From the NCBI GenBank assembly GCA_900320055.1, contig ONQS01000016.1, forward strand, positions 1 to 49,605: 49,605 nucleotides of DNA, written 5' to 3'. The stretch's first letter is position 1, and each line of letters opens with the position of its first letter. This DNA comes from an uncultured Prevotellaceae bacterium. Lineage in GTDB: Bacteria; Bacteroidota; Bacteroidia; Bacteroidales; Muribaculaceae. A model generated the notes under the pieces. The model was not told where the DNA came from. It made no database searches and saw only the letters and a program-made list of their open reading frames with translations. The position numbers and the translations under genes were made by a program. Shown piece by piece: positions 44,227 to 48,836 of this stretch.

Positions 44227-46320
44227 TTAGCCTTGCTGCATAGTCAGCAGGAATTCCTCGTTGTCGCGAGTGCGATCCATGCGTTCCTTGACAAACTCCA
44301 TGGCCTCGACCGAGGTGCGGTCACTCAGGAATCGGCGTATGATCCACATCTTGTTGAGCGTGTCTTGAGGCAGCAGCAGGTCATCACGCCTGGTGCTCGA
44401 AGCCATCACATCCACTGCCGGGAAGATGCGCTTGTTGGACAATTTGCGATCGAGTTGCAACTCCATGTTACCTGTACCCTTAAATTCCTCAAAGATCACT
44501 TCGTCCATCTTGGAACCGGTTTCGGTCAATGCCGTGGCTATGATCGTGAGGCTACCACCTCCCTCTATGTTACGTGCGGCGCCGAAGAAGCGCTTAGGAC
44601 GTTGCAGTGCGTTGGCGTCCACACCGCCCGTGAGGATCTTGCCCGATGCGGGAGCGATGGTATTATAGGCACGGGCCAGGCGAGTGATGGAGTCAAGCAG
44701 AATCACCACGTCGTGGCCACATTCCACCAGGCGTTTGGCTTTGCTCAGCACCAGATCGGCGATCTTAACATGACGGTCGGCCGGCTCGTCAAAGGTAGAT
44801 GCGATCACCTCGGCGTTTACACTGCGGGCCATGTCGGTCACCTCCTCGGGACGCTCGTCGATGAGCAGAATGATCATATAGGTCTCGGGATGGTTCTCTG
44901 AAATGGCGTTGGCGATCTCCTTCAAGAGCATGGTTTTACCGGTCTTGGGCTGTGCGACAATCAGTCCGCGCTGCCCCTTGCCGATCGGTGAGAACATATC
45001 GACCACACGCTGCGACACCGTCGGACGGGTCTTGCTCACCAGATTGAATTTCTCGTCAGGGAAAAGTGGCACCAGATGCTCAAACGGAACACGGTCACGC
45101 ACATAGGCCGGCGTGCGACCATTAATCAGGCGGATCTTGCTCAGGGGGAAGTACTTCTCTCCCTCCATGGGCGGGCGGATTGTGCCTTCGATCACGTCAC
45201 CGGTTTTCAGACCATAAGCCTTGATCTGGGACTGCTGCACGTAGATGTCGTCGGGAGATGTCAGATAGTTATAGTCGCTTGAGCGCAGGAAGCCATATCC
45301 CTCGGGGGCTATATCAAGCACGCCCTGTGCCTCTAGGATATTATCAAAATTGTAGGGCTGGTCCAGATAGGGATTTACTTCGGCAATCTGCTGCTGTTGC
45401 TGCTGCTTCATCTTGCGCTTGTTCTTCTTGCTCTCCTTGACCACTTTGGGTTCCTGGATAACAATGGGTGCGGCTGCAGCCTGCTCGGCTTGACGGCGAC
45501 GTTCCTCCTCGGCCTTGCGCATCGCCTCTTCGCGTTCCTGCTGAGTGCGCGGCTTAAAGGTGAAACTGCTGCCGGTGTTGAAGAATGAGTTTAACGACAC
45601 GTCCTCACGACCGGGAGCCGGTTGCTCGGTTGCAGCCGATTGCTCGGCGACAGGAGCAGGGTCGTTTTCAACCGGGGTTGCGGCAACCTCCGCTTGAGCC
45701 TCGACATCATCAGGTTGCGCTACAGGCATCTCAGACTGTTGCTGCTCACCATCAATGCTGTCAAAGGGCAAGACGGGTTGTTCGGCCACAGCCTGCTTGG
45801 GCTTGCGGCCTCGACGGCGCGGTGCCTCTTCAACCGCTTGAGCCGCTTGAGCCGTAGTCTCGTCGGCTGTTAAAGCCTGTTCTGCATCGGCCTGCGCCTT
45901 GAGGGCGGCCTCACGGGCAGCCTTCTCGGCAGCCGATGGACGCCCACGCTTACGCTTGGGCGCTTCTATTACTTCGGGCTGCGGAGTCGCTTCATCGGCA
46001 TGCTCCTCTTGAGGCTTGTCGGTGGCTTCGGGCTTTGGAGCCGCTGCCTTTTTATCTTCTTTTTTATTCTTCTTGTTGGGGACAGCATCATCCTTAGTCA
46101 CTTCGTTGCCATTGGCCTTAGCAGCCGGCTGACGGATGCGTTCACGACGGCGACGTGTGGGCTCAGAGGAATTGGCGGCTTCAGCAACAGCCTGCTGATC
46201 AAGCACCTCGTATACAAGAACGTCGTGGTCGATAGAATCGGCCTTCTTGATACCCATAGACATTGCGAGTTCGCGCAGTTGCTCGTCGCTCATTTGATTC
46301 AGTTGATCAATGTTGTACAT
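44227..46320 (-). CDS. rho: Transcription termination factor Rho with a long disordered insert
   Basis: A 697-residue hexameric RNA helicase that ends transcription; E. coli Rho has about 420. A SAP-like Rho_N segment (residues 1-45, [20 protein letters not shown]) precedes about 270 residues of low-complexity, charged, Ala/Glu/Pro/Gln-rich sequence (46-315). The RNA-binding cold-shock-like domain follows (about 325-400, [14 protein letters not shown]), then the ATPase with Walker A AQPKTGKT at 456-463 and Walker [12 protein letters not shown]. The insert holds two AT-hook-like motifs, KRKRGRP near 122-128 and RRRGRKPK at 168-175, and a poly-Gln run near 306-311. Long disordered inserts are known in Bacteroides Rho, where they support condensate formation. 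Confidence 0.96.
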
Positions 46321-46699: not shown

Positions 46700-48625
46700 A
46701 TGGACATCGACCGACAAAAAATAGCCCAGCACGTGAATCTGCCTATCATGAAGATGGTGGGTGAGGTTGCCGACGAGATTGGCCGCGATTGTTATGTCGT
46801 GGGAGGGTATGTCAGAGACATCTTTCTCGAACGACCCAGCAACGACATGGATTTCGTGACCATCGGCAGCGGCATCGCTGTGGCCAAGGCTGTGGCTCAC
46901 CGTCTGGGACGACAGGCCCATCTTGCCGTGTTCCGCACCTATGGCACCGCTCAAGTCAAGACGCGACAGTGGGAACTGGAGTTTGTCGGGGCTCGCCGCG
47001 AGTCATATCACCGTGAGAGCCGCAACCCTATCGTTGAGGACGGCACTCTCGACGACGACCAGCGCCGTCGCGATTTCACCATCAATGCGATGGCCATCTG
47101 CCTGAACAAGGAGCGTTATGGCGAGTTGCTCGACCCGTTTGATGGTATCGGGGACATGGAGCGTCGCATCATCCGCACCCCACTGGATCCGGACATAACC
47201 TTCAGCGACGACCCATTGAGGATGATGCGGGCCGTGCGTTTTGCCACCCAACTGGGCTTTGACATCTATCCCGAGACGTTCGACGCCATACGCCGCAATG
47301 CCGGCCGCATACGTATCATCACCCGCGAACGCATCGCCGATGAGTTGACGAAGATCATGCGCAGCAACAAGCCCTCCCGTGGCTGGCTGCTGCTTGACAA
47401 GTGCGGCCTGTTGCCGCTCATTTTCCCGGAACTGGCGGCCCTCAAGGGCGTCGAGACGGTCAACGGCCGCGGACACAAGGACAACTTCATGCACACCCTA
47501 CAGGTGCTCGACAACGTTGCCGTGGCAAGCGATAACGTGTGGCTGCGCTGGGCAGCGTTGCTGCACGATGTGGGCAAAGCGCGCACCAAACGCTGGGATC
47601 CCCAGTTGGGCTGGACGTTCCACAACCACAACTTCATCGGCGAGAAAATGGTGCCCAAGATTTTCGCCAAAATGCGCCTGCCACTCAACGAGCACATGAA
47701 GTATGTCAAGAAACTTGTGGGCCTGCACATGCGCCCCATCGCCCTGGTCGAGGACGAAGTGACCGACAGCGCCGTGCGGCGCCTGCTCTTTGATGCGGGC
47801 GATGATATCGACGATCTGATGACCCTGTGCAAAGCCGACATCACCAGCAAGAACCAGAACAAGGTGCAGCGCTTCCGTGAGAATTTCGACTTGGTAAAGC
47901 AGAAATTGGTTGACATTGAGGAGAAGGACCGCGTGCGCAACTTCCAGCCACCCGTCGATGGCGAGGAAATCATGACGACATTCGGCCTCGCTCCGTCGCG
48001 TCCTGTGGGCTATATCAAGGATGCCATCAAGGATGCTATCCTCGATGGTGTGATCACCAACGACTATGCTTCGGCCTATCGCCTCATGCTCGACAAGGCC
48101 TCCGAACTAGGCATCGCCCACGCCCATGAGGGACAACTGTGCCACACCACGATGCAGACTCCCGTGGGCACATTATATATTGGTGCCACGACCCAAGGCA
48201 TTGCCCTGATCGGTTGGGATGAAACCGAAATTGAAAAAATCGCAACGAAACTGAAATTGCAGCCCGTCGAGTCACTCACTCCCCTACTCTCCCAAGCCGT
48301 CGTCCAACTGAATGAGTATTTCGAGGGCAAGCGATGCGAGTTCTCGTTACCCCTGCATGTCCAGGGCACCGAGTTCCAGATGCGCGCCTGGGCCGAGTTG
48401 CAAAAGATCCCCTATGGCGAGACCATCTCCTACGGCGAGCAAGCCTCCCGCATGAGTAATCCCAAGGGCAGCCGAGCAGTAGCCCAAGCCAATCACAACA
48501 ATCCCGTGTGCATCGTCATCCCGTGCCACCGCGTAATCAACGCCGACGGCACACCCGGCGGCTACGCCCCCGGCCCCGACAAAAAACAATACCTCCTCAC
48601 CCTGGAATCCCACCACAGGGAGTAA
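46700..48625 (+). CDS. Fusion of CCA-adding tRNA nucleotidyltransferase and O6-alkylguanine-DNA alkyltransferase
   Basis: A single uninterrupted 641-residue frame. Residues 1-475 are a class II tRNA nucleotidyltransferase: GGYVRD at 35-40, the metal-binding DMD at 49-51, RRDFTINAMAI near 130, and an HD domain with HTLQVLDN and LLHDVGK (His289, Asp290). This part adds or repairs the 3' CCA end of tRNA. Residues from about 482 to 641 are a complete methylated-DNA-protein cysteine methyltransferase: MQTPVGTLYIGA at its start, FQMRAWAELQKIPYGETISY in the DNA-binding region, and the active site PCHRV with Cys609. That part would remove alkyl groups from guanine O6. The two are normally separate proteins; the short joint (SELGIAHAHEGQLC) lacks a linker. 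Confidence 0.9.
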   Translation: MDIDRQKIAQHVNLPIMKMVGEVADEIGRDCYVVGGYVRDIFLERPSNDMDFVTIGSGIAVAKAVAHRLGRQAHLAVFRTYGTAQVKTRQWELEFVGARRESYHRESRNPIVEDGTLDDDQRRRDFTINAMAICLNKERYGELLDPFDGIGDMERRIIRTPLDPDITFSDDPLRMMRAVRFATQLGFDIYPETFDAIRRNAGRIRIITRERIADELTKIMRSNKPSRGWLLLDKCGLLPLIFPELAALKGVETVNGRGHKDNFMHTLQVLDNVAVASDNVWLRWAALLHDVGKARTKRWDPQLGWTFHNHNFIGEKMVPKIFAKMRLPLNEHMKYVKKLVGLHMRPIALVEDEVTDSAVRRLLFDAGDDIDDLMTLCKADITSKNQNKVQRFRENFDLVKQKLVDIEEKDRVRNFQPPVDGEEIMTTFGLAPSRPVGYIKDAIKDAILDGVITNDYASAYRLMLDKASELGIAHAHEGQLCHTTMQTPVGTLYIGATTQGIALIGWDETEIEKIATKLKLQPVESLTPLLSQAVVQLNEYFEGKRCEFSLPLHVQGTEFQMRAWAELQKIPYGETISYGEQASRMSNPKGSRAVAQANHNNPVCIVIPCHRVINADGTPGGYAPGPDKKQYLLTLESHHRE

Positions 48626-48681: not shown

Positions 48682-48836
48682 GATATAGCAGTTGACCCTA
48701 TCAGATTTTTTAATGCTGATTTCGCCAATCAAGCAATTTTACGAAAACAATTAAGTATCTCTTATTCAATTAGTTTAACTCGCGTAATTCGCATAATTCG
48801 CATTAGCCCCGCAGGATTTGGGCCTACTTTTATATC
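48682..48836. repeat. Palindromic interspersed element, copy 2 (imperfect terminal inverted repeats)
   Basis: An element of about 155 bp related to the one at 23971-24115. It starts GATATAGCAGTTGACCC, almost identical to copy 1, and ends TGGGCCTACTTTTATATC, which is again an inverted repeat of its own start (about 13 of 18 positions). TTTTTAATGCTGAT and AATTCGCATTAGCCCCG are shared with copy 1 in the same order. The middle has diverged. It lies between convergent genes, after a terminator. Confidence 0.7.

Follow-up and report, generated by a model that had tools for sequence, protein, structure and literature searches.

Fusion of a tRNA nucleotidyltransferase and an O6-alkylguanine-DNA alkyltransferase in one reading frame of Muribaculaceae genomes

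The window analysed in this study, a 49,605-nucleotide stretch of DNA from an uncultured bacterium of the Muribaculaceae, carries on its plus strand (46700..48625) a gene of 641 amino acids, with an ATG start and no internal stop, in which a tRNA nucleotidyltransferase is followed by an O6-alkylguanine-DNA alkyltransferase. Judged from its sequence and its relatives, this gene probably encodes a genuine bifunctional protein with two independent active sites, derived from a cca-ogt gene pair and kept as the genome's alkyltransferase; we put the probability of this reading at about three in four. The single frame, the complete domain sets, the conservation, the purifying selection, the spread, the precursor-like layout and the reciprocal presence within the genus are all computed observations. 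In the proposed scheme, the N-terminal part would add or repair the 3' CCA of tRNA in the cell, the C-terminal part would act as an ordinary one-shot O6-alkylguanine-DNA alkyltransferase, and the two sites would work independently, with no coupling, on a single uncleaved chain. Separate proteins normally perform these two tasks, which in these gut and rumen bacteria would fall to one. The stop/start boundary between the co-directional neighbours cca and ogt would have been lost, and we propose that the fusion was retained because it is the source of the genome's alkyltransferase.

Five Pfam domains follow one another in the frame, all above their curated cut-offs. The first part contains the nucleotidyltransferase head (PolyA_pol, PF01743, E 1.6e-25; residues 31-159, 46790..47176), with GGYVRD at 35-40, DMD at 49-51, and RRD at 123-125, the RNA-binding neck (PolyA_pol_RNAbd, PF12627; residues 186-247, 47255..47440), and an HD domain (PF01966; residues 263-348, 47486..47743) with its HD pair at 289-290. 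The second part contains the alkyltransferase N-terminal ribonuclease-like domain (Methyltransf_1N, PF02870; residues 482-553, 48143..48358) and the DNA-binding/active-site domain (DNA_binding_1, PF01035, E 3.8e-30; residues 558-637, 48371..48610), whose PCHRV active site (residues 608-612, 48521..48535) holds the acceptor Cys609, as read in the translation. The head with its GG..RD and DxD motifs, the neck, and the HD domain assign roughly residues 1-472 to the class II tRNA nucleotidyltransferases, and a complete alkyltransferase occupies about residues 479-637; it scores 104 against a cut-off of 27 for PF01035 and 97.8, above the cut-off of 46.4, for the NCBIfam model TIGR00589 (ogt). The calculated mass of the full chain is 72.7 kDa. 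The frame and the Pfam matches thus agree with the initial annotation, which had read one continuous frame with a complete tRNA nucleotidyltransferase and then an alkyltransferase with PCHRV and Cys609. The divergent upstream neighbour, given here for context, is rho (44227..46320, minus strand), and a rho match is present at 46 of 65 fused loci (L001-L063, L070, and L072). Downstream of the fused gene, a short repeated TTCGCAT-like stretch was noticed by eye at 48780-48810.

Ada is an example of an alkyltransferase joined to another domain. Other alkyltransferase fusions on record are AGT-EndoV from Ferroplasma acidarmanus and AGT-2 from Caenorhabditis elegans (PMC10779285). The partners in AGT-EndoV, AGT-2, and Ada act on DNA or resemble DNA-binding proteins, whereas the partner in the window protein is a tRNA 3'-end enzyme. 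No description of a fusion between a CCA enzyme and an alkyltransferase was found in the literature searched, which covered few subscription papers and included PMC10779285 and PMC7824862. The N-terminal part has the same head-neck-HD layout and catalytic motifs as the bacterial CCA- or A-adding class II enzymes (PDB codes: 3wfr, 1vfg/4wbz, 3h37, and 1miv), which are among the best structural matches of its model, but these have no C-terminal alkyltransferase, and the window protein lies below the NCBIfam equivalog cut-offs (355.4 bits against 438.8 for the best CCA equivalog, TIGR02692). Similarly, the C-terminal part shares both alkyltransferase domains, PCHRV, and the partner residues with the Ogt/MGMT proteins (M. 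tuberculosis OGT, PDB codes: 4bhb and 4wx9; E. coli Ada C-terminal part, PDB code: 1sfe); unlike them, it forms the C-terminal quarter of a chain that starts with a tRNA enzyme.

Conservation was assessed on 79 fused rows, 76 of them distinct, with one frameshifted in the CCA part (L079/G063) and one cut by a contig end (L056). Residues Y578, R592, N601, C609, H610, R611, K629, and E636 and the proline of PCHR are invariant in all 79. The spacing of these residues, R611 and the proline apart, equals that of human MGMT Y114, R128, N137, C145, H146, K165, and E172. The family score, the PCHR acceptor site, and the Tyr/Arg/Asn/Lys/Glu partners found in 79/79 rows identify the part as an alkyltransferase; alkyltransferase-like proteins have PWHR in place of PCHR. 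In the head, GGYVRD is kept in 77 of the 77 fused rows that reach it, and D51 is replaced by His in one row (L023). Both parts are under purifying selection. Of 2926 pairs, 158 fell within the dS range, and their median dN/dS is 0.095 in the CCA part against 0.29 in the alkyltransferase part, where values span 0.08-0.88; three sequences had been entered twice. The roughly threefold higher dN/dS of the alkyltransferase part could suggest a structural passenger without transferase activity; however, its active site is invariant in 79/79 rows, its pace of change is that of separate alkyltransferases, and none of the 82 genus genomes with the join has another alkyltransferase match, so that this explanation appears highly improbable. 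Where the CCA parts are 8-16% apart, the median differences between fused alkyltransferases are 32-34%, and at comparable CCA distance the separate alkyltransferases of unfused relatives differ by 25-37% (14 pairs). The pace relative to the CCA part is about equal in the two sets, and therefore the fused copy behaves as an ordinary alkyltransferase. Overall, the family matches, conservation, dN/dS, and spread uphold the earlier view that neither half is a relic.

In the AlphaFold model of the window protein (mean pLDDT 91.4; residues 104-111 below 50), the best Foldseek matches of the N-terminal part are tRNA-processing or CCA-adding enzymes, and the C-terminal part aligns with M. tuberculosis OGT at a TM-score of 0.85-0.87 of the target and 38-39% identity. 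The junction between the two enzymes, placed by alignment and pLDDT at about residues 473-481 (48116..48142), appears short and ordered (pLDDT 95-97 over residues 471-490), and the placement of the domains relative to each other is less certain (pTM 0.72). Internal initiation or cleavage at the junction could yield two separate products, making the fusion one of DNA only. Met485 is present in 38 of the 79 fused rows, the window protein included, and a Met anywhere at 473-487 in 43, so an internal start is possible in those rows; however, 36 of the 79 have no Met there and the junction is modelled as ordered, and we hold two products to be unlikely.

How far the architecture spreads was a point raised by the initial annotation. 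Of 101 genomes sampled from the window's genus in the Muribaculaceae, 82 have the join, as do all five genomes of genus g87 and four of nine of genus g82, where the frame of the fourth (G256) is cut. The PF01035 domain occurs in 90 of the 101 genus genomes, as full-length fused frames in 77, as impaired fused frames (cut, frameshifted, or head-less) in five (G028, G044, G045, G061, and G063), and as separate genes only in eight. The 11 genomes without it are six that have no match to the window protein, G017, in which the sole CCA-type enzyme found is of another, not window-like, type, the unfused G076, G088, and G470, and G062, truncated where its contig ends. Of the matches listed for the family sample, which covers 397 genomes in 30 genera, 75 reach the alkyltransferase: 67 from the window's genus, five from g87, and three from g82. 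No fusion was found in 27 other Muribaculaceae genera, each represented by one genome; 24 of these have PF01035, in frames of 70-371 amino acids, which are too short to hold the CCA part. The matches listed for the rest of the order, sampled with one genome for each of 59 families (58 with a match), likewise showed no fusion, nor did those listed for 295 other genomes of the phylum; in the latter sample, G475, G480, and G607 have long frames of 815-869 amino acids, apparently without the alkyltransferase. A match was found in 471 plasmid records, none over 80% of the query.

The contig scan kept 80 of 105 relatives, 65 extending into the alkyltransferase and 15 ending with the CCA part. They are metagenome-assembled genomes, mostly ruminant, labelled Muribaculaceae, Prevotellaceae, Bacteroidales, and in some cases Candidatus Sodaliphilus, which the window's genus probably includes, since the match start of L053 (Candidatus Sodaliphilus fimicaballi) is that of G031, a member of the genus. 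An assembly or frameshift artefact is ruled out as the general cause of the join, since PF01035 lies in a frame of at least 639 amino acids in 77 of the 101 genus genomes; 76 of these frames also match the window protein, and G472 was judged by frame length alone. The exceptions are G045 and G061, split across contigs, and G063 (L140/L079), in which a frameshift within the CCA part, due to sequencing error or decay, breaks the fused gene. Several other long frames were rejected as fusions: the 898-residue frame of G099/L136 is, by eye, a run of N joining two genes, the 758-residue frame of G060/L117 looks by eye like an upstream open frame without a domain, and those of G118, G211, and G280 proved on inspection to be of 485, 504, and 495 amino acids.

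The distribution of separate alkyltransferases within the genus is largely reciprocal to that of the fusion. Each of the 82 genus genomes with the join has exactly one PF01035 match, and a separate alkyltransferase is present in eight of the 11 unfused members (G076, G088, G046, G074, G015, G060, G412, G470, G090, G039, and G040), with none found in the other three, whose assemblies are 77-87% complete; G062 (L144) was dropped from the unfused count, which fell from 12 to 11, because its contig ends at residue 457. A counter-pattern is seen in g82: of its four fused genomes, G171 and G256 carry a second, short PF01035 frame (131 and 122 amino acids), so that the fused copy is not the sole alkyltransferase in that genus. 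Frames of 122-144 amino acids that comprise the DNA-binding part of the alkyltransferase, with PCHRV, and nothing else of the enzyme were observed in G060, G171, G074, and G256 (L191, L197, L198, and L199).

For the trees, fused rows of the window's genus were thinned and identical rows dropped, leaving 84 of 113 alkyltransferase and 81 of 117 CCA rows, and the alkyltransferase tree left out frames below 110 bits, among them the short frames in G060, G074, G171, and G256. In the alkyltransferase tree, fused sequences form two groups, the window's genus (40 rows) and g82 with g87 (9 rows), although a single fused clade is not rejected (AU p 0.39). Seven of the eight separate alkyltransferases of the genus are in the tree and fall outside both groups, the short G074 copy being under the score limit; those of the five unfused g82 genomes group with the ones from other genera. 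A quick CCA tree places unfused genus members among fused ones, and therefore loss of the fusion within the genus is likely. The fewest state changes on this tree are seven with G062 counted as a lone CCA enzyme and six without it, or six also without L136 (G099), where a stretch of N directly follows the CCA part; the starred-branch minimum is four. The unfused pair L064 (a G076 contig) and G088 lies at the rho-flanked site that many fused genes occupy. Taken together, these sequences suggest that the fusion arose once or twice in Muribaculaceae, with probable later loss in some lineages, the majority of them carrying a separate alkyltransferase. That close relatives might always have two genes at this place, which the initial annotation had named as evidence against a fusion, is not what was seen, although separate genes do occur in some relatives. 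The recurrence of the join in 79 rows shows that it is not a product of chance.

A likely precursor layout is found in genus g86 (G175, L182), where a HAD hydrolase gene, cca, and ogt lie in this order on one strand. The HAD gene and cca are 45 bases apart, and the stop of cca (477 amino acids) overlaps the start of ogt (168 amino acids) in ATGA. The enzymes, order, and strand are those of the fused gene; however, the overlapping stop and start leave two proteins. In G159 (g70), the order on one strand is cca-queD-queE-ogt, the que names being given by eye, and in the five g87 genomes the HAD gene is on the strand of the fused gene and precedes it by about 1.1-1.3 kb. The data fit a neighbouring cca-ogt pair that lost its boundary, a direction that we infer, and a change in the opposite direction would be compatible with them as well. 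A parallel, different fusion of the CCA enzyme was also observed, a 680-residue frame whose N-terminal part is a HAD-family hydrolase (L138:2280-4319 of G177, genus g88, and L078:766-2805).

One genome, G044, appears to show partial decay. Its gene (L141:3357-4814) has lost the head, with no PF01743 in the frame, retains the neck-HD part and an intact alkyltransferase, and directly follows, with an ATGA overlap, a gene that by eye resembles nth (endonuclease III). The genome, 88% complete, has one PF01035 match; its single PF01743 protein is another CCA-type enzyme, 466 amino acids long (L212:1426-2823). Retention of the alkyltransferase without the nucleotidyltransferase argues, from one genome, for separate selection, and the surviving HD part may have a use of its own. 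The other CCA-type enzyme occurs also in G005, G017, G080, and G085 and is 35-36% identical to the window protein in four of the genomes listed; in G044 its gene adjoins one that by eye resembles a poly(ADP-ribose) glycohydrolase gene.

These cases bear on a possible coupling on RNA, in which the alkyltransferase would be delivered to alkylated tRNA by the tRNA-binding part and would repair tRNA instead of, or besides, DNA. The linkage is kept in three genera and the junction is short and ordered, as such coupling would favour; however, the alkyltransferase keeps its standard residues and matches separate ones in its rate of evolution, eight of the 11 unfused genus members have a separate alkyltransferase, and G044 lost the tRNA-modifying head and retained the alkyltransferase, which together make RNA coupling very unlikely. 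Another explanation is regulatory. The acceptor Cys of the alkyltransferase family is used once per chain, and alkylation of Cys609 might alter or destabilise the chain and lower CCA addition, so that alkylation damage to DNA would slow translation. The window genome has one PF01743 match and one PF01035 match, on this same chain, though with the assembly 92.8% complete a separate copy of ogt or cca may have gone unnoticed. In this genome, 22 of 28 clearly read tRNA genes have no encoded CCA and six carry it (29 distinct genes were read, from 30 of 41 tRNA places). With most of the tRNA genes read having no CCA of their own, the window protein is thus the only candidate found for adding it; its nucleotidyltransferase, presumably CCA-specific, is probably essential. 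However, unfused members stand among fused ones in the quick CCA tree, so the link is dispensable, and the relative orientation of the domains is not confidently predicted (pTM 0.72); such regulation seems slightly less likely still than RNA coupling.

Therefore, a tolerated operon fusion with two independent activities remains the most likely account, although retention in three genera could hint at more than tolerance. The initial annotation had offered both a repair link between alkylation and tRNA and simple tolerance; the latter fits better, and nothing supporting the former was found. Coupling between the halves is possible but unsupported, and it is improbable that one protein forms a damage checkpoint, in which alkylated Cys609 disables or destabilises tRNA 3'-end maturation, or that its tRNA-binding part extends alkyl repair to tRNA. 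The window gene represents a fusion, spread across a clade, between an enzyme of tRNA maturation and a suicide protein of DNA repair; among its relatives are a likely unfused precursor, versions that have been replaced, and one in partial decay. Should the two halves be independent, this would be a clean case of neutral operon fusion; otherwise, alkylation damage and tRNA quality would be directly linked.
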